This document shows, one piece after another, positions 3,273 to 31,203 of a stretch of DNA of 32,192 nucleotides; the first letter of the stretch is position 1, and every line of letters begins with the position of its first letter. Below the pieces are notes generated by a model. It saw only the letters and a list, made by a program, of their open reading frames with translations. It was not told the origin of the DNA and did no database searches. The position numbers and the translations under genes were made by a program. The DNA is from a virus, in the IMG/VR virus record IMGVR_UViG_3300017951_000062, positions 1-32,192 of that record; one strand, written 5' to 3'.

Positions 3273-3875
3273 ATGGAAAAAGAAAATGATTTATCTACAC
3301 CAGCAGCATGGCCATTTCCGGTTTCAGGTGTAAAAAGAGAAGGACAAGAAGTTCCTGATGTTACATTTAAAACACGAGTAAGAGATGAAAGTGTTGAAGG
3401 TGAAAATCCATATCGCTGGCAAGATGTAACTACAGCAGATTACTTTGCAAATAAGAAAGTAGTTTTATTTAGTTTGCCAGGTGCATTTACACCAACATGT
3501 TCTGCTTATCAATTACCTGGTTTTGAAAGATTAGCATCATCATTTAAAGATGAAGGTATTGATGAGATCTATTGTATTTCTGTTAATGATGCATTTGTTA
3601 TGAATCAATGGGCACAGAAGCTTGAAGTTAAAAATGTTAAGATGATTCCTGATGGATCTGGTGTGTTTACTACAGAAATGGGAATGATGGTAAAGAAGGA
3701 TAATCTTGGTTTTGGTGAAAGATCTTGGAGATATGCTATGATTGTAAATGACTGTGTTATCGAGAAGATGTTTGTTGAACCTGGTAAAGAAGATAATCAT
3801 GAAGAAGATCCATATGGTGTCTCAAGTCCTGAGAATGTCATGAAATATATTCACGAACAAATAGAGGTAAATTAA
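3273..3875 (+). CDS. Prx5-type peroxiredoxin (first copy)
   Basis: A 200-residue thioredoxin-fold peroxidase. The signature LPGAFTPTC places the peroxidatic cysteine at residue 76, preceded by KKVVLFS. Downstream ISVNDAFVMNQWA and RSWRYAMIVND fit the Prx5/AHP1 class, which reduces hydrogen peroxide and organic peroxides using glutathione or thioredoxin. An N-terminal extension of about 25 residues and a C-terminal extension ending SSPENVMKYIHEQ are longer than in typical Prx5 proteins. AGGAGG precedes the ATG. It lies between gp44 and gp62 with its paralogue next door, so it is co-transcribed with replication genes. Confidence 0.85.
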   Translation: MEKENDLSTPAAWPFPVSGVKREGQEVPDVTFKTRVRDESVEGENPYRWQDVTTADYFANKKVVLFSLPGAFTPTCSAYQLPGFERLASSFKDEGIDEIYCISVNDAFVMNQWAQKLEVKNVKMIPDGSGVFTTEMGMMVKKDNLGFGERSWRYAMIVNDCVIEKMFVEPGKEDNHEEDPYGVSSPENVMKYIHEQIEVN

Positions 3876-3876
3876 T

Positions 3877-4467
3877 ATGACTGTCATAGTTGAAGATAGA
3901 CTTTCTATGGAAAATATGTATGCCCCTCCAACAGAGTATATCGATAATATAAAAGTGTGGTATGAAGATGAAGAACAGGAAGATGGTACTACTGTTCAAA
4001 TGAGACGTATAGACTCAAGAGCAAGAAATACTTCAGAAGATTTTGAAAATAAAAAGGTTGTTGTTTTCAGTTTACCTGGAGCATTTACTCCAACTTGTAC
4101 CACATTACATGTTCCTCAATATGATGAGATGGCACCACAGTTTACAGATTACGGTGTAGATGATATAATATGTGTATCAGTGAATGATAGATATGTTATG
4201 AGCTATTGGTGGGAATTCTTAGGTGTTAAAAATCTTAGATACATAGCAGATGCTAATGGTGATTTTACTGCAGGTATGGGAATGTTAATGAGTTTTAGGG
4301 CTGGATTTTATGGTCATAGATCTTGGAGATATGCTATGGTAGTTGAGAATGGCATAATCAAAAAAGTTTTTGAAGAACCAGGAAAGAAGCATGACCCTAT
4401 AGATGACCCTTATGAAGTATCATCCCCAGAAAACGTTTTAAATTGGTTAAAGGATCAAGTTGCATGA
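3877..4467 (+). CDS. Prx5-type peroxiredoxin (second copy)
   Basis: A 196-residue paralogue of the preceding gene. LPGAFTPTC puts the peroxidatic cysteine at residue 74; SVNDRYVMSYW, RSWRYAMVVENG, EEPGKK and SSPENVLNWLKDQ align with the first copy. The N-terminus differs (MTVIVEDRLSMENMY), so the pair has diverged beyond a recent duplication. Spacing to the upstream gene is one base and the stop overlaps the next ATG (ATGA), indicating tight operon coupling. The two copies may form a heteromer or act on different peroxides; this is inference. Confidence 0.85.
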   Translation: MTVIVEDRLSMENMYAPPTEYIDNIKVWYEDEEQEDGTTVQMRRIDSRARNTSEDFENKKVVVFSLPGAFTPTCTTLHVPQYDEMAPQFTDYGVDDIICVSVNDRYVMSYWWEFLGVKNLRYIADANGDFTAGMGMLMSFRAGFYGHRSWRYAMVVENGIIKKVFEEPGKKHDPIDDPYEVSSPENVLNWLKDQVA

Positions 4468-10381: not shown

Positions 10382-11677
10382 ATGGCTTCGATCGTAGATA
10401 ACCCAAAATATGGTGAAGGTCATCAAGTAGTTTTAAAAGATAAATTATCAAGCGTGATGGTGTCTAAACTTCGTGAAAGTGGTTATGCACCTGGTAAAGA
10501 TGTTTTTAAAATTACCTTAAAACAATCTCCAAAACCTGAAAAAAGTTTAACTATTGCTAAAGGTGAAAAGTCAGTTTTATTAATAGATAAAAGCAATAGC
10601 AAATTATTATTAAAAGGTTCTGAATCTTCAATCAATGGATTGTTTAATCATTTTTCTAATAATACAAAATCAAATACTAATTTACTAACAGAAATTAAAG
10701 AAACATTTTCTTTAGAAGTGTTTAAAGAATTTATTGAAAGAAATCGTAAAGTTAGTGAAGAAGAACTAATTAAAATTGTAGATGACCAGATACGTGGAAC
10801 TGTAGAGAATTATGACAGTGTATATTATGAAAGTGCATACAAACAATTAGATGAACTAAAAAAGTATGTACGAAAAAAAGGTTATGACTATGAAAGACAA
10901 GGAGGTCGACGCACAAAGGATTTATATACTGTAGCTAGAAAATTGACAGGCAAACTTAGTGATAACTGGAACCCTGCTGATGTATGGATGATTCAAAAAA
11001 AGTATAATATGAAACCAATGTTAGATTCTAAGTCATCATCTGAATTAAACAGTATGTTAACTGATGCATTTAATAAAAGAGACATTATACCAATATCATT
11101 AAAACAAGTTTTACAACCTAAAGCTAAAAGTTCTATTATTGATCCAAGCAACTTAATGAATCAAAAATTAGATTTAGATTTACGTTTTGATAGAGTAGAT
11201 TTGTCAGATTCATATAATAACTTTATTGTTATTACAAAATCAGGTTTTGCAATACGATGTGGTTTTAAGGCAAGTGCAACTACATTAAATGTTTCATTAG
11301 AAGGTAGATTTATTAAAGCTGGATATCAAACAGGTGCTGTTGATGCTAAACTATATACTGCCGAAGTATTAAAAAAACAAAATTATAGATTGCGTTCAGG
11401 TTCAGTACAAAAATCAGAGTATAATACAGCTAAAAAAGAATTAAAAGAAATGTTTACAAAATACAGACGTTTATCAAATGCAATTATTGATTATAAGCAA
11501 GCAATAGAATTATTTGAAGCAGGTAGTAAACTAACACAAGATAGATTTACAAATCTAATGTCGTACTTATATAGCATGTTAATAAAACCAAAGGATTTTC
11601 AAGATCATATGAAGTTTTGTTATTTTACTTCTAAAAAATTAACTAAAGATAGTGGCATTTATCTTATTCTGCAGTAA
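10382..11677 (+). CDS. Large unknown protein, possibly virion-associated
   Basis: A 431-residue protein beginning MASIVDNPKYGEGHQVVLKD. Features include a lysine-rich central region (ELKKYVRKKGYDYERQGGRR near residues 160-180), a beta-rich segment (NNFIVITKSGFAIRCGFKAS near 280-300), and a C-terminal helical part. LLTEIKETFSLEVFKEFIE near residues 100-118 resembles the internal-head-protein cleavage context (LTE). It follows the nuclease by three bases in what looks like a late operon. I do not recognise a characterised family and give no activity. Confidence 0.6.
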   Translation: MASIVDNPKYGEGHQVVLKDKLSSVMVSKLRESGYAPGKDVFKITLKQSPKPEKSLTIAKGEKSVLLIDKSNSKLLLKGSESSINGLFNHFSNNTKSNTNLLTEIKETFSLEVFKEFIERNRKVSEEELIKIVDDQIRGTVENYDSVYYESAYKQLDELKKYVRKKGYDYERQGGRRTKDLYTVARKLTGKLSDNWNPADVWMIQKKYNMKPMLDSKSSSELNSMLTDAFNKRDIIPISLKQVLQPKAKSSIIDPSNLMNQKLDLDLRFDRVDLSDSYNNFIVITKSGFAIRCGFKASATTLNVSLEGRFIKAGYQTGAVDAKLYTAEVLKKQNYRLRSGSVQKSEYNTAKKELKEMFTKYRRLSNAIIDYKQAIELFEAGSKLTQDRFTNLMSYLYSMLIKPKDFQDHMKFCYFTSKKLTKDSGIYLILQ

Positions 11678-24002: not shown

Positions 24003-24592
24003 ATCTGTTTCTCTTACATGAAGATCCTAAAATATGTGCGCAGTATCATGCTGATATGCATGTCAACAAGATGATTGTTGAAACTGCGCAGATGTTATCA
24101 ACAAACCATAGAATACTGGATGGTTATCCTGTCATAGAACAACGTGTAAACGAAAAGACTGGACGAAAGTACAAAGTAAAAACATACAAACTTGATAATG
24201 AGCTTGATTCGATTTTATACAAGTCATGTCATATTAATCATCCATGTACTGTATGGTTAAGGGAATCTATTCATAATTATAATTGGGGTTATGATCTTAT
24301 GTGTGAACTTGGTATCGAAGTTAGAATCAGATATGGTACACGTCATAAGACTATATCTAAGCTTAGAGAAGTTCTTAAGAATCCTCCTAATAATATTCCA
24401 AACATACCTAAAACACCATTCAAACCTGCAATCACTGATAAAGATTGTATGTATCATGAAGGAAAGTTATTGAAGCCTGTTGAAATGTACAGAAAGTTCT
24501 ATATGGTTTCAAAGACAGCAAAGAAAAAATGGGATGGTTGGAAACATACACCAACACCAGATTGGTTTCAACGAGGAGAGTTTTTATTATAA
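23999..24592 (+). CDS. Conserved phage protein with HxDxHxxK motif
   Basis: A 197-residue protein starting MNLFLLHEDPKICAQYHADM then HVNKMIVETAQMLS. The pattern D-K-H-x-x-K-M followed by E-x-A-Q-x-L-S is shared by a family found in many marine phages and giant viruses that I know only as conserved hypothetical. Other conserved parts are HINHPCTVWLRES and the C-terminal YRKFYMVSKTAKKKWDGW. Conserved His, Lys and Glu residues suggest an enzyme, with a distant look of pyrimidine-dimer glycosylase, which I cannot confirm. Its end contains the next gene's late promoter. Confidence 0.6.
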   Translation: MNLFLLHEDPKICAQYHADMHVNKMIVETAQMLSTNHRILDGYPVIEQRVNEKTGRKYKVKTYKLDNELDSILYKSCHINHPCTVWLRESIHNYNWGYDLMCELGIEVRIRYGTRHKTISKLREVLKNPPNNIPNIPKTPFKPAITDKDCMYHEGKLLKPVEMYRKFYMVSKTAKKKWDGWKHTPTPDWFQRGEFLL

Positions 24593-24595
24593 ATA
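24588..24595 (+). promoter_or_regulatory. Late promoter box at a leaderless start
   Basis: TATAAATA at 24588-24595 overlaps the end of the upstream gene and finishes 7 bases before ATG 24603. The expected start site is at or within two or three bases of the ATG, and there is no Shine-Dalgarno between them. Confidence 0.7.
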
Positions 24596-24602
24596 AGAAA
24601 TA

Positions 24603-25826
24603 ATGTTTAATCTAAAGTCTTTTATAACCGAACAAAGAAATGTCCATATGGAACACCTAGAGGATAATGTCCTTAATGCAGGTGTCGATGGAGCTAAACG
24701 TTCTTTGATATTCTTAACAAGACTTGTAAGATTACTTTCTGGTCATTCACGATCAAAACTCAACATATCTACAAAATGGGATGGTGCACCGGCAATCTTT
24801 GCCGGCATTGATCCACGTGATGGAAAGTTCTTTGTTGCAAAGAAAGGTGTCTTTGCCAAGAATCCTAAGGTATATAAAACTAATAAAGATATAGATGCAG
24901 ATACCTCTGGGGACCTCGCTGCTAAACTCAAAATAGCACTAAAACATTTACCTGAATTAAAGATAAAAGGTGTCATTCAGGGTGATCTTTTATATAGCAA
25001 ATCTTCACTCAAGAAGGTGAATATAAACGGAGAGCCACACTTATCGTTTCATCCAAATACGATTGTCTATACAGTGCCAATGAATACACCATTATCAAAA
25101 GAGATGCTTGCATCTAAACTTGGTATTGTTTGGCATACACAATATCAAGGTAATTCTTTTGAAGACATGCATGCAGTATTTGGACAACCTATAGCTATGC
25201 ATCTTGCTAAAAGTAAGAATGTATGGTTTACTGATGCCGTATATAAAGATGTTTCTGGATCTGCTAATTTTACAGCGAATGAAACTAAGGATATAAGAAA
25301 AGATCTTAATTCAGCAATACGAACATATAAAAGTATCGATAAGAAAATGCTCAATGATATTTCAAACAATCATGAGTTAGTAATTCGTGTTAAGGCGTTT
25401 TACAATACTTATGTTAGAGCAGGAGAAGTTGTCAATGATACTAAATCTTTTACTAGGGATCTCGTTAATCATATTATGGATTACTATACTAAACAAGCGA
25501 GTACTAAAAAAACTGAACGTGGGAAAGCAGTACAATTTGAAAAGCAAAAGTCGCTTCTAAAACATTTTGTTAATCCTCCAAAGGTCCAAAAGATCTTTGA
25601 TTTAATGTTACAGTTGAATAGTGTTAAGCTTAAAATTGTTGATAAGTTAAATAAGAATAGAACATTGAATACATTTTTACTTACTGATAAAGGTTATCAA
25701 GTTACATCTCCAGAAGGATATGTTGCAATCGATCATCTTGGTAAAAATGCAGTGAAGTTAGTTGATCGTTTAAATTTTTCATATGCTAACTTTTCACCAA
25801 ACGTTAAAAAGGGATGGACAAAATGA
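24603..25826 (+). CDS. RNA-ligase-like nucleotidyltransferase with capsid-targeting start
   Basis: A 407-residue protein. Residues 1-10, MFNLKSFITE, match the T4 internal-protein signal (T4 IPIII: MKTYQEFIAE), with cleavage expected after ITE. The body has covalent nucleotidyltransferase motifs: TKWDGAPAIF with Lys 58 as KxDG motif I, FVAKKGVF as motif III-like, and near the C-terminus EGYVAIDHLG with AVKLVDR as motifs IV and V, like T4 RNA ligase 1. It could be an RNA or DNA ligase packed in the head and delivered with the genome. Related proteins are annotated only as unknown in marine phages. Enzyme class fairly likely; packaging inferred. Confidence 0.65.
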   Translation: MFNLKSFITEQRNVHMEHLEDNVLNAGVDGAKRSLIFLTRLVRLLSGHSRSKLNISTKWDGAPAIFAGIDPRDGKFFVAKKGVFAKNPKVYKTNKDIDADTSGDLAAKLKIALKHLPELKIKGVIQGDLLYSKSSLKKVNINGEPHLSFHPNTIVYTVPMNTPLSKEMLASKLGIVWHTQYQGNSFEDMHAVFGQPIAMHLAKSKNVWFTDAVYKDVSGSANFTANETKDIRKDLNSAIRTYKSIDKKMLNDISNNHELVIRVKAFYNTYVRAGEVVNDTKSFTRDLVNHIMDYYTKQASTKKTERGKAVQFEKQKSLLKHFVNPPKVQKIFDLMLQLNSVKLKIVDKLNKNRTLNTFLLTDKGYQVTSPEGYVAIDHLGKNAVKLVDRLNFSYANFSPNVKKGWTK

Positions 25827-26182
25827 AGTCATTTAAAAATTTTCTACAAGAAAAAGGACTATGGTATAATATTCATATGAAGCGCAAGCGTGGTGAACGT
25901 ATGCGTAAAAAAGGTGAGAAAGGTGCACCTACTCAAGATGCTATAAAAAGTGCACAAGGTGAAAGCATTGAAGAAAAGAAATCAGAATCATGGGAAGCTG
26001 GTTATAAAAGACGTGTAGTTAAAACTACTAAACCAGAACATAAAGCAAAAGGATATGAATGGAGAATCAAAGGTAAAGAACGTCCTGAAATATCAATAAA
26101 GCTTTATAAGAATAAGCCATCTCAGGCTGAATTTAATAATCAAATGAGAAGAGTTGCAGGTCACGAATTTGGTAGTGGCTAA
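25823..26182 (+). CDS. Small basic protein with capsid-targeting start
   Basis: A 119-residue protein, MKSFKNFLQE followed by KGLWYNIHMKRKRGERMRKK. The first ten residues match the T4 internal-protein signal, with cleavage after LQE expected. GLW-x-NIH-x-KR-x-RG then GEKGAPTQ is a motif that recurs in marine phage and giant-virus proteins of unknown role. The rest is basic (SWEAGYKRRVVKTTKPEHKA), suitable for DNA in the head. The ATG lies inside the 3' end of the ligase-like gene. The stop codon forms part of the 19-base element of promoter module C. Confidence 0.65.
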   Translation: MKSFKNFLQEKGLWYNIHMKRKRGERMRKKGEKGAPTQDAIKSAQGESIEEKKSESWEAGYKRRVVKTTKPEHKAKGYEWRIKGKERPEISIKLYKNKPSQAEFNNQMRRVAGHEFGSG

Positions 26183-26248
26183 GTAGTTGATTTTAAACAA
26201 ATCTTTTTTCCTTTAATAGTGTACATTTTCGTGTACATATGTTAGAAT
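26179..26248 (+). promoter_or_regulatory. Repeated promoter module, copy C
   Basis: CTAAGTAGTTGATTTTAAA (26179-26197), 22 bases, TGTACA (26220-26225), 17 bases, TAGAAT (26243-26248). A second TGTACA lies at 26232-26237. The predicted start near 26255 falls at ATG 26257. Element and spacing match copies A and B. Confidence 0.8.
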
Positions 26249-26256
26249 ATTAATAT

Positions 26257-26862
26257 ATGTTAAATTTTAAACAGTTCATAGCAGAAGAAAAAACACTCAA
26301 TATATTCGATATTGATGATACTCTTCTACGAACTACAGCCAAGGTCATGGTAATGAAAGATGATAAGGTTGTAACTAAACTCTCAAATCAACAGTTCAAT
26401 ACATATAAACTTAAACCTGGTGAGCATTTTGATTTCACTGAATTTGCTGATTCTGAGAAGTTTTTTAAGACATCTAAACCTATGATGGGAATGCTTCAAA
26501 AAGCAAAAGCCATTCTAGGAAATATGAAACCATCTTCAAAGATGATCTTTGTTACAGCAAGAACTGATTTTGATGACAAGAAGAAAGTTCTTGCAACATT
26601 TAGGAAATTTGGATTTCCAATCGATAAAGTTTATATTGAAAGAGCAGGAAATATCGTTAATGCAAAGAAGACTTCTGCAGCAATTGCAAAAGCCTATATC
26701 ATAAGAAAATACCTTTCAAAGACAGGATATGATAAGATAAGAATGTATGATGATGCTCCTAAAAACTTAGATATGATCAACAAACTAAAGAAATTGAATA
26801 AAGATGTTTCTTTAGATCTACATCTAGTTACTCCTTCTGGAAACATAAAAAAGTATAAATAA
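26257..26862 (+). CDS. HAD phosphatase with capsid-targeting start
   Basis: A 201-residue protein. MLNFKQFIAE is nearly the T4 internal-protein signal (FIAE identical), with cleavage expected after residue 10. Then NIFDIDDTLLRT is HAD motif I (two Asp), FVTARTDFDD is motif II, and MYDDAPKNLDM is motif IV; a lysine-rich middle supplies motif III. The closest functional analogy is polynucleotide or nucleotide phosphatases, but the substrate is unknown. No Shine-Dalgarno is visible and the promoter -10 ends 8 bases before the ATG. The stop overlaps the next late promoter. Confidence 0.75.
   Translation: MLNFKQFIAEEKTLNIFDIDDTLLRTTAKVMVMKDDKVVTKLSNQQFNTYKLKPGEHFDFTEFADSEKFFKTSKPMMGMLQKAKAILGNMKPSSKMIFVTARTDFDDKKKVLATFRKFGFPIDKVYIERAGNIVNAKKTSAAIAKAYIIRKYLSKTGYDKIRMYDDAPKNLDMINKLKKLNKDVSLDLHLVTPSGNIKKYK
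26854..26861 (+). promoter_or_regulatory. Late promoter box for the polyprotein
   Basis: TATAAATA at 26854-26861 overlaps the HAD stop codon. A start about 12 bases after its first base leaves a leader of roughly 60 bases before ATG 26928. Confidence 0.7.
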
Positions 26863-26865
26863 AAG

Positions 26866-26927
26866 TAATAACAGTTAGGCTACGGCAAACCTGCTTGCTA
26901 ACGGATAAGGCTAAGGTAAACTCCGAG
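26866..26927 (+). other. Structured GC-rich 5' leader
   Basis: This leader is far richer in GC than its surroundings. Possible pairings are GTTA/TAAC (26874-26877 with 26899-26902) enclosing GCAA/TTGC (26885-26888 with 26895-26898), and CGGA/TCCG (26902-26905 with 26922-26925). There is no typical Shine-Dalgarno before ATG 26928, so RNA structure may control initiation. I match it to no known riboswitch. Confidence 0.4.
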
Positions 26928-28910
26928 ATGAAAATAGAAAATCAAAACATACAAATAGTGTCAAAGTCCTCCGACCAAACAGCTAGATCTTTGACAAACT
27001 TAACAGAGCAAGCGGGCTCCGTGGCTGCTGTTTCTTTTGGACGTCTAAATCCAATAACAACAGGCCACGAAAAGATGGTCAACGCATTAAAGAAACAATC
27101 TAAGATACATAAAGCCACACCAATGTTATACTTGTCTCATTCACAAGACAAGAAAAAAAATCCACTGTCATACAACGAGAAGGTTTCTCTAGCAAAGAAA
27201 GCCTTTGGTTCTATCGTAAAAGTTTCAAAGTCAAGAACAATATTTGAAATATTTAAAGAACTGAATAAGAAATTTAAAGAGGTCGTTCTCGTGGTAGGGT
27301 CAGATAGAGTGAATGAATTTAGGACATTAATGAATAAATATAATAACAATTTATATAAGTTCGATAAGATCACAGTAATATCTGCAGGTGAAAGAGATCC
27401 TGATTCAGATAGTGTTTCTGGAATGTCTGCTTCAAAGATGAGAGACGCAGTTCAGAAAGGTGATAAGAGTAAATTTAAACAAGGACTACCAAAAAAATTA
27501 CAAGCACGATCAAAACAAATATTCGATTTAGTGAGGGACGGGATGGGATTAAAAGAAATTAAAGAAGAGCTAATGCAAGAGTTGAAGGAAGAAGGTTTAT
27601 TAGCATTAGATGAAGTTTTAACGTTACAACAAAGAATGAAGAAGCGTCAGATCTTCAAACGTTATAAGGCAAAGATTCAAAGAGCACGTAAGATTGCAAT
27701 GAGAAGATTTGCTAAAATGCCTAACCTTAAAAAGAGAGCTCAGTTAGCTGCACGTAAATTAATTCGTAAAAGAGTTGCAGGTGAAAGAGGTACAAATTAT
27801 CAAAAATTAAGCGCTTCAGAAAAGATACAAATTGATAAGATGTTAGAGAAAAAGAAAGGCTTAATTAGAAAGCTTGCAGTTAAACTTCTTCCGCGTGTAA
27901 AGAGAGCTGAAACTCAAAGATTAGCATCGTTTAGAAAAGGGGCTGCACTAAAATCTCATCATGAAGAGAATATTAAATCATTTAAAGAAATGATTTCTGA
28001 GAAGCCTGAAGTTCCACAAGATAGAGATGTAAAAGATCGTCCAGGTTCTCAACCAAAAGGATACTATAAAGGTTTATCTAAAGGACAAAAAGAAAGAAGA
28101 GCAAGCCAGTTTGAAAAACAAACTGATAAGCCAGCATCTATGGCTAAACCTGCTCCAGGTGATTTAGATAAGTCTGGAAAATTTAAGAAAACAAAACTAT
28201 CAAAGCATACAAAGAAATATCGTCAGATGTATGGTGAAGAAGTAAATGATAAAGAATTAATCACCATCATTGAAAAGGTAATGGATAGAATAGAGACAAC
28301 TCAACTTGACGAAAAGTCTTTAGAAGGATTAAAGAAGAAGTCAGAAAAGTCAGGTATACCTTATTCTATTTTGAAACAAGTCTATAATCGTGGTCTTGCT
28401 GCATGGAGAACAGGACATAGACCTGGAGCAAACCCTCAACAATGGGGATATGCTCGAGTGAATAGTTTTATTACAAAAGGAAAAGGAACTTGGGGAGGTG
28501 CTGATAAAGACCTTGCTGCCAAGGTAAGAAAAGAATCTGTTGAAATGAATGAAGGTTTTCAAATGGCATATGACTATTTTGGAAAACCTGCTGTTGCACC
28601 GATTGCAGACAAATTCAAAGAAATGAAAATCAACGGAGGATTTCACCATCATCCAGATACAATAAAAGAGATGGAGGATAATGAAAAAGATGTCAAAAAG
28701 AAAAAGATTACAATAACAATCGATGAAGGTGTTGAAGAATTAAATGAGATGAAATCATTTAAACAACACATGAAGAAACCTGAAGAAGTTAAACCAAAGA
28801 AAAGAGAAAACGATCTTCAAGGCGATGAAGTACGTAAAGAAAAGGCTGATGCAATAAGTGGTAATCTGTATAAAGCTAAAGCAAGGGATATTGGTACAGA
28901 TGCAGCTTAA
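26928..28910 (+). CDS. Multidomain internal-head polyprotein: nucleotidyltransferase, basic domain, C-terminal phage domain
   Basis: About 660 residues. SLTNLTE at 21-27 is a candidate prohead protease site. Residues 30-215 form a nucleotidyltransferase: SFGRLNPITTGHE (41-48 core, PPAT/NMNAT-like T-x-G-H), VVLVVGSDRVNEF, and SVSGMSASKMRDAV as the terminal motif. Residues 237-340 are a very basic helical domain (RAQLAARKLIRKRVAGERG). SFKEMISE near 350-358 is another cleavage-like site. SLEGLKKKSEKSGIPYSILK through GLAAWRTGHRPGANPQQWGY (about 463-535) matches a domain common in marine T4-likes. LNE and MKSFKQHM near the end may be further sites. I prefer ATG 26928 to the TTG at 26895. Confidence 0.7.
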   Translation: MKIENQNIQIVSKSSDQTARSLTNLTEQAGSVAAVSFGRLNPITTGHEKMVNALKKQSKIHKATPMLYLSHSQDKKKNPLSYNEKVSLAKKAFGSIVKVSKSRTIFEIFKELNKKFKEVVLVVGSDRVNEFRTLMNKYNNNLYKFDKITVISAGERDPDSDSVSGMSASKMRDAVQKGDKSKFKQGLPKKLQARSKQIFDLVRDGMGLKEIKEELMQELKEEGLLALDEVLTLQQRMKKRQIFKRYKAKIQRARKIAMRRFAKMPNLKKRAQLAARKLIRKRVAGERGTNYQKLSASEKIQIDKMLEKKKGLIRKLAVKLLPRVKRAETQRLASFRKGAALKSHHEENIKSFKEMISEKPEVPQDRDVKDRPGSQPKGYYKGLSKGQKERRASQFEKQTDKPASMAKPAPGDLDKSGKFKKTKLSKHTKKYRQMYGEEVNDKELITIIEKVMDRIETTQLDEKSLEGLKKKSEKSGIPYSILKQVYNRGLAAWRTGHRPGANPQQWGYARVNSFITKGKGTWGGADKDLAAKVRKESVEMNEGFQMAYDYFGKPAVAPIADKFKEMKINGGFHHHPDTIKEMEDNEKDVKKKKITITIDEGVEELNEMKSFKQHMKKPEEVKPKKRENDLQGDEVRKEKADAISGNLYKAKARDIGTDAA

Positions 28911-30489: not shown

Positions 30490-30797
30490 TGACTAAGCCA
30501 GGAACAGATTTTGTAAGAAATTTAGCAGTAGCATGTGTACCTTTACTTCTTGCTGCGCTAGGTTATCTTTTTACTAATGCATTGACATTACATGATAAGG
30601 TAAGAGTGTTAGAACAGAAGATGTCAATATTGATTGATATGGATAATAAGATTATTCCATCACCAGGTAATGCTATTGCAAGATTAGAATTAAAAGAACA
30701 GTTATTGATAGAAAAGAATGAGATTGATAAGAGAATTCATATCTTAGAATATCATGTTGACAAATTATTACAAGGAGAAGAAGATGCCAGCAGGTGA
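30489..30797 (+). CDS. Membrane-anchored coiled-coil protein
   Basis: A 102-residue protein with one span near the N-terminus (NLAVACVPLLLAALGYLFTN) followed by a coiled coil (LHDKVRVLEQKMSILI and LKEQLLIEKNEIDKRIHILE). Such a layout resembles holin/antiholin or XhlA-type haemolysin-like phage proteins, and some spanin inner subunits. The ATG overlaps the previous stop region (taATGA). It overlaps the next gene by 14 bases. Lysis-related function is possible; the sequence does not prove it. Confidence 0.55.
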   Translation: MTKPGTDFVRNLAVACVPLLLAALGYLFTNALTLHDKVRVLEQKMSILIDMDNKIIPSPGNAIARLELKEQLLIEKNEIDKRIHILEYHVDKLLQGEEDASR

Positions 30798-31203
30798 ATT
30801 TGGTACAAGTAAACTTTCGAATAAATATAAAGATGATACGCCTGGAGAAAGAAAATTGAAAAGATTCGATAAGTTCTATACAGAAAATGTTAAAGAAAGA
30901 TATTTAGAAGATCTTGTTCAAGAAGCTGCTGAGTATCAAGGAAAGAAAGTTAAGCTTAATGATCCAGTAAGATCAAGCGACGGTAAGAAGAAATTCTATG
31001 TCTATGTCAAGAATGACAAAGGCAATGTTATTAAGTTAGGTTTTGGTGATCCAAATATGGAGATTAAACGTGATGATCCAGCTCGCAGAAGAAGCTTTAG
31101 AGCACGTCATCAATGTGATACAAATCCAGGACCAAAGTATAAAGCAAGATATTGGTCATGTAGAATGTGGGCAAAAGGGCAAACAGTTTCAGAATTAGAT
31201 TAA
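30784..31203 (+). CDS. Conserved marine-phage basic protein
   Basis: A 139-residue protein. MPAGEFGTSKLSNKYKDDTP opens it; KKKFYVYVKNDKGNVIKLGF then GDPNMEIKRDDPARRRSFRA and RYWSCRMWAKG form the core, with two cysteines (HQCDTNPG and WSCRMW). The core GDPNMEIKRDDPARR-SFRARH recurs in T4-like marine phages in virion contexts, though its function is not established. LEDLVQE near residue 45 is a cleavage-like site. I chose ATG 30784 because AAGGAG at 30772-30777 lies 6 bases before it. Confidence 0.65.
   Translation: MPAGEFGTSKLSNKYKDDTPGERKLKRFDKFYTENVKERYLEDLVQEAAEYQGKKVKLNDPVRSSDGKKKFYVYVKNDKGNVIKLGFGDPNMEIKRDDPARRRSFRARHQCDTNPGPKYKARYWSCRMWAKGQTVSELD

Follow-up and report, generated by a model that had tools for sequence, protein, structure and literature searches.

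That one N-terminal tag can serve diverse cargo is already known for the internal proteins of T-even phages (PMC3012670; papers are cited here by PubMed Central number and for the excerpts available). In the signal of T4 internal protein III (IPIII), genetics assigned targeting to residues 4 and 7 and processing to residues 8 and 10 (excerpt of PMC9026906). Enzymes have also been detected in cyanophage virions, among them a putative citidylyltransferase in S-SM1 (PMC3037559, in the part available) and an NMNAT in S-SCSM1 (PMC9602691, likewise in part). Here we analyzed 32,192 nucleotides (nt) of viral DNA, IMG/VR record IMGVR_UViG_3300017951_000062 (hereafter the window, which is the entire record), in which four consecutive plus-strand genes at 24603-28910 encode proteins with peptides resembling the T4 signal. 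We consider it quite probable that these genes form a cassette of cargo for the head of a Kyanoviridae-like T4-type phage, the enzymes of which would be tagged, packed, cut, and ejected with the DNA.

The window is probably part of a larger genome. Genes were called mechanically, and comparison of the open reading frames (ORFs) with annotated neighbors revealed a sliding clamp, a clamp loader, a DNA polymerase, UvsX, and a helicase. The best relatives were Phage C48C1, Methylophilales phage Melnitz, Pelagibacter phage HTVC008M, and cyanophages. Because of this gene content and these relatives, we place the window with T4-like phages of the Kyanoviridae kind.

T4-type N-termini in the window

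The original prediction held that three consecutive proteins begin with T4-type targeting sequences and matched them to the T4 signal MKTYQEFIAE, which is how both ipII and ipIII of T4 read when fetched. All three starts were recovered in plus-strand ORFs spanning 24603-26862. The ORF at 24603-25826 starts MFNLKSFITE, the ORF at 25814-26182 starts MDKMKSFKNFLQE, or MKSFKNFLQE if read from the ATG at 25823, and the ORF at 26257-26862 starts MLNFKQFIAE. The respective putative propeptides occupy 24603..24632, with a cut predicted after E10, 25823..25852, and 26257..26286. A broad regular expression for such starts matched 5 of the 54 genes called in the window, versus an expectation of 0.43 when N-termini were shuffled; UvsX (MSTFLKNLIDE) and one hydrophobic ORF, both among the five, look like chance matches. 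In relatives, a stricter expression matched 1 of 297 genes taken from outside the locus or from the minus strand. Given this background, the chance of finding three tagged genes in a row among about 50 genes is around 1e-5.

For the fourth protein, an LTE near the N-terminus and an internal SFKEMISE had been noted. Both were located, at residues 36-38 (counted from a TTG start) and 362-369, respectively. The targeting-like element of this protein is thus internal, not N-terminal, which limits the earlier reading.

Leader positions compared with T4 genetics

The first protein of the cassette belongs to the DUF6267 family. Its homologues were picked by features downstream of the leader, giving 53 distinct leaders and, with that of the window, 54. 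The leader Glu was located by the pattern [ILVMF]xE, so that positions 8 and 10 were partly selected; positions 4 and 7 and the spacing were not. Position 4 was occupied by F in 29 leaders, L in 22, and Y, I, or S in one each, and position 7 by Y in 27, F in 24, and L in 3. At the partly selected positions, residue 8 was L in 33 leaders, I in 20, and F in one, and residue 10 was E in 54/54. Positions 2, 3, 5, 6, and 9 varied freely, and the distance from Met to Glu was nine residues in 47 of the 54. Across 32 DUF6267 homologues down to 28% identity, E10 formed an invariant column and M1 a nearly invariant one; residues 1-16 had very low confidence in the structural model of the protein. As in an N-terminal propeptide, residues 4 and 7 (targeting) and 8 and 10 (processing) were kept. 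The positions retained in DUF6267 leaders are those that T4 IPIII needs.

The window lacks gp21-gp23, and a match of the cleavage motif to the phage's own prohead protease was found in relatives only. Leaders of their gp21 hold IVEA, ITEA, IAEA, and LTEE. Their gp23 reads LLTE-AP in S-CREM2 and FLTE-TG in C48C1, resembling SFLTE-AE of T4 gp23, which we take to be the T4 cutting site. No [LI]xE[ASG] site was seen in gp23 of HTVC008M.

The proteins of the cassette

The DUF6267 protein (24603..25823, plus strand, 407 amino acids [aa]; PF19782, E value of 2e-103) had been predicted to be ligase-like. Among the 32 homologues, K58, D60, and G61, G127 and D128, E371, G372, and V374, and K385 were invariant. 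These KxDG, GD, EGxV, and K columns stand in the order found in ligases, and correspond to motifs I, III, IV, and V of covalent nucleotidyltransferases. In a structure comparison, the top 21 rows were all RNA or DNA ligases, the best with a Z score of 7.5 and a root mean square deviation (rmsd) of 3.8 over 182 aligned residues, a middling score below the decisive level. Foldseek returned no match at an E value of 1e-3, and a profile search of PDB sequences gave no credible relative. The motif columns and a possible RNA-ligase-like fold agree with the predicted ligase-like cargo, and the protein is a probable ligase-like nucleotidyltransferase. Because a single profile, phrog_455, takes in a DUF6267-like as well as a nucleotidyltransferase-like part, the two are probably fused in some phages.

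The second protein (25814..26179, plus strand) is small and basic, with 122 aa and matches to phrog_11180 and others; two of its four distinct short homologues carried the tag. The third (26257..26859, plus strand, 201 aa) is a HAD-fold phosphatase-like protein. It matched PF03767 with an E value of 1.8e-4, below the family cut-off, and phrog_415 (polynucleotide kinase) with an E value of 6e-7, and it is nearest to the polynucleotide kinase family. On these two matches, the predicted HAD phosphatase fits as a HAD-like protein. Nothing matched it among isolate phage records, and no credible match was found among solved structures in PDB. The tag was present in 16 of 23 distinct leaders of its homologues.

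The fourth protein (26895..28907, plus strand, in the ORF at 26895-28910) combines an HxGH nucleotidyltransferase domain of the cytidyltransferase/NMNAT type, a basic region, and a C-terminal DUF5824. Its start was called at the TTG at 26895, the ATG at 26928 being likelier. The predicted nucleotidyltransferase was confirmed by PF01467, at 23.1 bits with a cut-off of 21, together with a TxGH motif in GRLNPITTGH; PF19141 (E value of 1.7e-20) and phrog_3041 (2.5e-76) also matched. PDB sequences contained no credible relative. The LTE (27000..27008, plus strand) is a predicted protease site just ahead of the enzyme domain, and homologues support it: nearly all that bear a leader have [LVI]xE[AQ] just before this domain. 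Homologues also share peptides like the internal SFKEMISE (27978..28001, plus strand). Past residue 40, targeting-like peptides gave 21 regular-expression matches at 18 sites, versus 0.77 expected in shuffled sequences, with many near residues 336-391. Other homologues carry the tag at the N-terminus instead.

The tag in related phages

We evaluated how widely the tag occurs in 124 IMG/VR loci with 1,262 distinct N-termini. DUF6267 itself was tagged in 50 of 52 starts. In the 4 kb upstream of it, 21 of 221 starts were tagged (3.0 expected), and up to 7 kb downstream, 28 of 284 (2.3 expected). The tag was found in 5/62 starts beyond this range, 1/175 far upstream, and 0/122 on the minus strand; loci lacking the anchor gene had 19/346 (3.4 expected). 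Tagged proteins of the 124 loci formed 28 clusters. Among isolates, C48C1 had 8 matches in 229 genes, six of them within 11 kb at the DUF6267 locus; Melnitz (4/199 genes) and HTVC008M (4/210 genes) had just one or two at the locus.

A scan of IMG/VR DNA with the pattern MK[ST]FK..F[IL].E, made regardless of phage type, matched at least 120 stretches, 80 of which were analyzed. These 80 held 86 sites, and 82 ORFs of at least 50 aa fell into 34 clusters, the largest with 47 members. Among the matches listed, 55 of 76 loci held a T4-like hallmark gene, as did 21 of the 29 without the 47-member cluster. The real control, a pattern with permuted codons, matched 0 stretches. A Glu-to-Lys pattern matched 27, most from one small T4-like family with the targeting residues kept, and is therefore not clean noise. 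The collection of such proteins from relatives, which the original prediction had called for, thus places the tag on many unrelated proteins (28 locus clusters and at least 34 scan clusters). Pfam gave nothing for most proteins of the scan or of the slot upstream of DUF6267.

In relatives, this slot often holds a protein with the E...D...ExK quartet and the fold of a PD-(D/E)xK nuclease. All 15 members compared, with 21-92% identity to the first, share E25, D50, E63, and K65, and the fold matched HhaI with a Z score of 9.6 and an rmsd of 4.1 over 177 aligned residues; Foldseek alone gave a weak match (E value of 0.034). A restriction-modification reading of this HhaI-like nuclease was not supported, as a methyltransferase motif was found in 0/19 nuclease loci and 0/105 other loci by a crude regular expression that may be too strict. 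In one relative, the slot holds an ADP-ribosyltransferase (ART)-like protein, matched by ART-PolyVal with an E value of 1e-5, below the model cut-off, and with no credible relative among PDB sequences.

Several observations from the scan stand apart. Tagged ART-like proteins occur in viral contigs (L195:6037-6813 and L226:1723-2589; ART-PolyVal, E value of 1e-23; ADPrib_exo_Tox, 5e-4). A family of 118 aa, with 47 ORFs (L147:3268-3621 and 46 more in L147-L226), starts MKSFKEFIKEETPTNSVGTG, which resembles the stretch after the cleavage site of the major capsid protein (LLTE-APTQAVG in S-CREM2). At L189:6505-9422, four close same-strand proteins start MKTFKQF[IL].E, and the locus also has portal, sheath, and tube genes. 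One small T4-like family has the N-terminus MK[ST]FK[QE]FL[ND]KxV, in which the targeting residues are kept and Lys takes the place of Glu10 (L267, L271, L273, L278, L282-L285, and L289-L293). In T4, Asp at position 10 stops cutting, not targeting. By analogy, members of the Lys10 family may remain uncut, as core or cargo proteins.

Tagged enzymes in published virion proteomes

Table 3 of the S-CREM2 study (PMC10665884, in the part available) contains 52 virion proteins. Several of them start with the tag, including the SAM hydrolase (SAM lyase) gp6 (MKDFDSFLEE), the kinase gp14 (MKRFDAFLTE), and the cytidylyltransferase gp154 (MKNFSSFLTE), as well as gp13 (MKDLHSFLTE) and gp136 (MQTFSMFFSE); gp12 has LRFASFMAE at residues 17-25. 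Across the 219 annotated genes, the broad expression, set beforehand, matched 4 of 52 detected and 3 of 167 undetected proteins (p of 0.057). Two stricter patterns, written after the virion starts had been seen, matched 5/52 versus 1/167 and 6/52 versus 2/167 (p of 0.003 for each). The virion protein gp12 (L137:7704-10313) is annotated as Cas9-like, and Pfam gave no family for it; similar leaders occur in S-CRM01 (SLDSFIKEAA) and S-N03 (GFSNFLKEAE).

In S-SZBM1, 30 proteins were detected, including a cytidylyltransferase (PMC9146016, available in part). We matched these proteins by length to 216 of its genes, and for three of the lengths (87, 291, and 292 aa) more than one gene was a candidate. 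The cytidylyltransferase found in the virions starts MRFRQFIIEA. Thus, homologues of the window's nucleotidyltransferase were detected in the virions of both S-CREM2 and S-SZBM1. The kinase of S-CRM01, named a virion protein in the introduction of PMC10665884 (in the excerpt), starts MISFDQFLSE and sits between DUF6267 and a tagged cytidyltransferase (MKLFNQFFKE). The cytidyltransferase of Syn9 starts MKKFSAFLSE.

Late-promoter-like elements and other features

The element TATAAATA, which we take to be the T4 late promoter, was read directly on the plus strand ahead of the cassette (24588..24595) and again ahead of the nucleotidyltransferase gene (26854..26861). The first lies just 7 nt from the ATG, and a transcript from it would therefore be nearly leaderless. 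The window shows no enrichment of the ATAAATA core (15 copies versus 23.2 expected). In relatives, TATAAATA occurred within 80 nt ahead of 12/19 tagged genes in the slot upstream of DUF6267, 10/42 untagged slot genes (several with near-miss tags), 2/59 DUF6267 genes, and 53/802 others. The excess at tagged slot genes over the genes outside the slot (12/19 versus 55/861) had a p value of 5e-10. It is restricted to this slot: across tagged genes in general, ATAAATA preceded 16/124, versus 129/1178.

A further cargo protein is possibly encoded at 30754..31200 (plus strand), judging from its sequence, with RFDKFYTE at 30862-30885 and LVQEA ahead of the domain. Its homologues begin MKKFKQYIDE, MKSFRNYIKE, and similar; the strict pattern occurred within 60 residues in only 5 of 21 distinct homologues. 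The phrog_1462 protein at 10382-11677 is untagged, and a homologue at L086:565-1911 is tagged (MESYANFLAE). Two similar proteins in tandem at 3273-4467 look like peroxiredoxins.

Interpretation and alternatives

We propose that each cargo protein has a T4-type capsid-targeting propeptide, internal in the case of the nucleotidyltransferase. Residues 4 and 7 would dock the protein on the prohead core, and residues 8 and 10 would allow cleavage behind the Glu by a prohead protease of the gp21 kind, which would release the enzyme within the head. The freed enzyme would leave the head with the DNA at infection. The tag would thereby act as a movable address, which relatives place on a PD-(D/E)xK nuclease, an ADP-ribosyltransferase, a SAM lyase, a kinase, and others. 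By analogy with T4, capsid targeting and removal of the tag are very likely and well supported, and ejection into the cell is likely. Of the virion-delivered payload that the original prediction suggested, targeting and processing are well supported by the conserved positions, the unrelated tagged neighbors, and the virion proteomes of relatives. For this phage itself, we infer packaging, core binding, cleavage, and entry into the cell by ejection.

Several results weigh against this proposal. The window, at 32 kb, lacks gp21-gp23, and the virion data come from relatives. DUF6267 was untagged in the three cyanophages read (S-SZBM1, S-CRM01, and Syn9); that of S-SZBM1 starts MAKNTHLEHLED and was absent from the 30 detected proteins. 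Only one of three strictly tagged S-SZBM1 proteins was detected, two small ones being missed, with no significant association. In HTVC008M, little was seen other than MYNDLLVED, a shortened form, on DUF6267. The pattern was missing from 7 of the 23 HAD leaders, three of which have Gly for Glu10, and it arises by chance in noncargo proteins such as UvsX.

The tag might instead bring proteins to the prohead core to act there, as core or assembly factors or in mending DNA ends during packaging, with no delivery. The same peptide type on the 47-member small head-like family and the Lys10 variant, which keeps just the targeting residues, would suit such a role, and delivery of tagged cargo is argued by analogy with T4. 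However, the cargo differs between relatives (nuclease, ART, HAD, kinase, and SAM lyase), as expected of weapons and not of assembly parts, and the tagged internal protein I of T4 is injected (excerpt of PMC3012670). We regard action at the core without delivery as unlikely.

That cytidylyltransferase, kinase, and SAM lyase were detected in virions through contamination by abundant late proteins, the tag having another role, appears very improbable. The point was raised by the authors themselves, for S-CREM2, where carry-over in CsCl purification could not be excluded (PMC10665884), and for S-SCSM1 (PMC9602691), in the parts of both papers available. Yet contamination would not select for the tag, and the named enzymes detected in S-CREM2 besides lysis proteins are all tagged, three at the start and the fourth, Cas9-like, at residues 17-25. 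It is scarcely credible that the shared N-terminus is a common amphipathic start helix that has no targeting role and resembles T4 by chance. The broad expression does match UvsX and other replication proteins, but a chance helix would explain neither the at least 120 stretches against none for permuted codons nor the exact positional match to T4 genetics, nor would it explain the tag on unrelated families at one locus and on virion-detected enzymes.

Returning to a delivered cargo, the likeliest work of the enzymes in the window, suggested tentatively, is healing and sealing of nucleic acid ends along with nucleotide or NAD chemistry as infection begins. The former is suggested by the ligase-like protein beside the polynucleotide-kinase-like phosphatase, and the latter by the nucleotidyltransferase. 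More broadly, we lean slightly toward the view that T4-like phages of marine and other environments have in common a mobile head address of ten residues, able to make an injected effector of nearly any enzyme, with a swappable arsenal at the side of DUF6267 and polyproteins that are packed and then cut. This arsenal would comprise the nuclease, ADP-ribosyltransferase, HAD phosphatase, ligase, NAD-type nucleotidyltransferase, and kinase beside DUF6267; the SAM lyase and further proteins would be encoded at other genomic sites. The polyproteins would be the long nucleotidyltransferases with an internal address, one precursor giving several mature proteins.

As a sequence rule, the tag would predict the proteins that a phage loads into its head. 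It would also explain how puzzling enzymes, which the groups reporting them could not tell apart from contaminants, come to be in virions. Abundant marine phages would hold large, unexplored repertoires of injected effectors, with anti-defense and host-takeover enzymes likely among them. Being short, the tag could be tried in the well-studied T4 packaging assay.

Comparison with known systems

In the open-license PMC literature, the searches turned up no paper that connects the targeting sequence to Kyanoviridae cargo. New as far as searched are the use of the tag for an enzyme cassette in marine Kyanoviridae-like phages and its correspondence with virion proteomes, along with the nuclease/ART slot of swappable content and the internal copies. 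The virion enzymes of S-CREM2, S-SZBM1, S-SCSM1, S-SM1, and S-CRM01 include homologues of the window's fourth protein, and the copies in S-CREM2, S-SZBM1, and S-CRM01 bear the tag. The cyanophage papers, in the excerpts available, report detection and name no targeting signal.

The inner-head proteins of SPN3US and phiKZ resemble this system in the propeptide-guided loading of ejection proteins and in prohead-protease cleavage after Glu (excerpt of PMC5694885). According to the same excerpt, their propeptides are mostly longer than 100 residues, whereas those of the tagged proteins here have ten. The closest likeness is to IPI-IPIII and Alt of T4, which share the ten-residue N-terminal propeptide with hydrophobic or aromatic residues at positions 4 and 7, Ile or Leu at 8, and Glu at 10, as well as diverse cargo behind a single conserved tag (PMC3012670 and PMC9026906, both available in part). 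One relative has a tagged ADP-ribosyltransferase-like protein, of the same class as Alt. Unlike the T4 internal proteins, the cargo here is a cassette of larger enzymes (ligase-like, HAD, nucleotidyltransferase, and nuclease) in marine Kyanoviridae-like phages, and one cargo protein bears the element inside the chain. Our verdict is that the system of the window is a new, enzyme-rich variant of the T4 internal-protein system.

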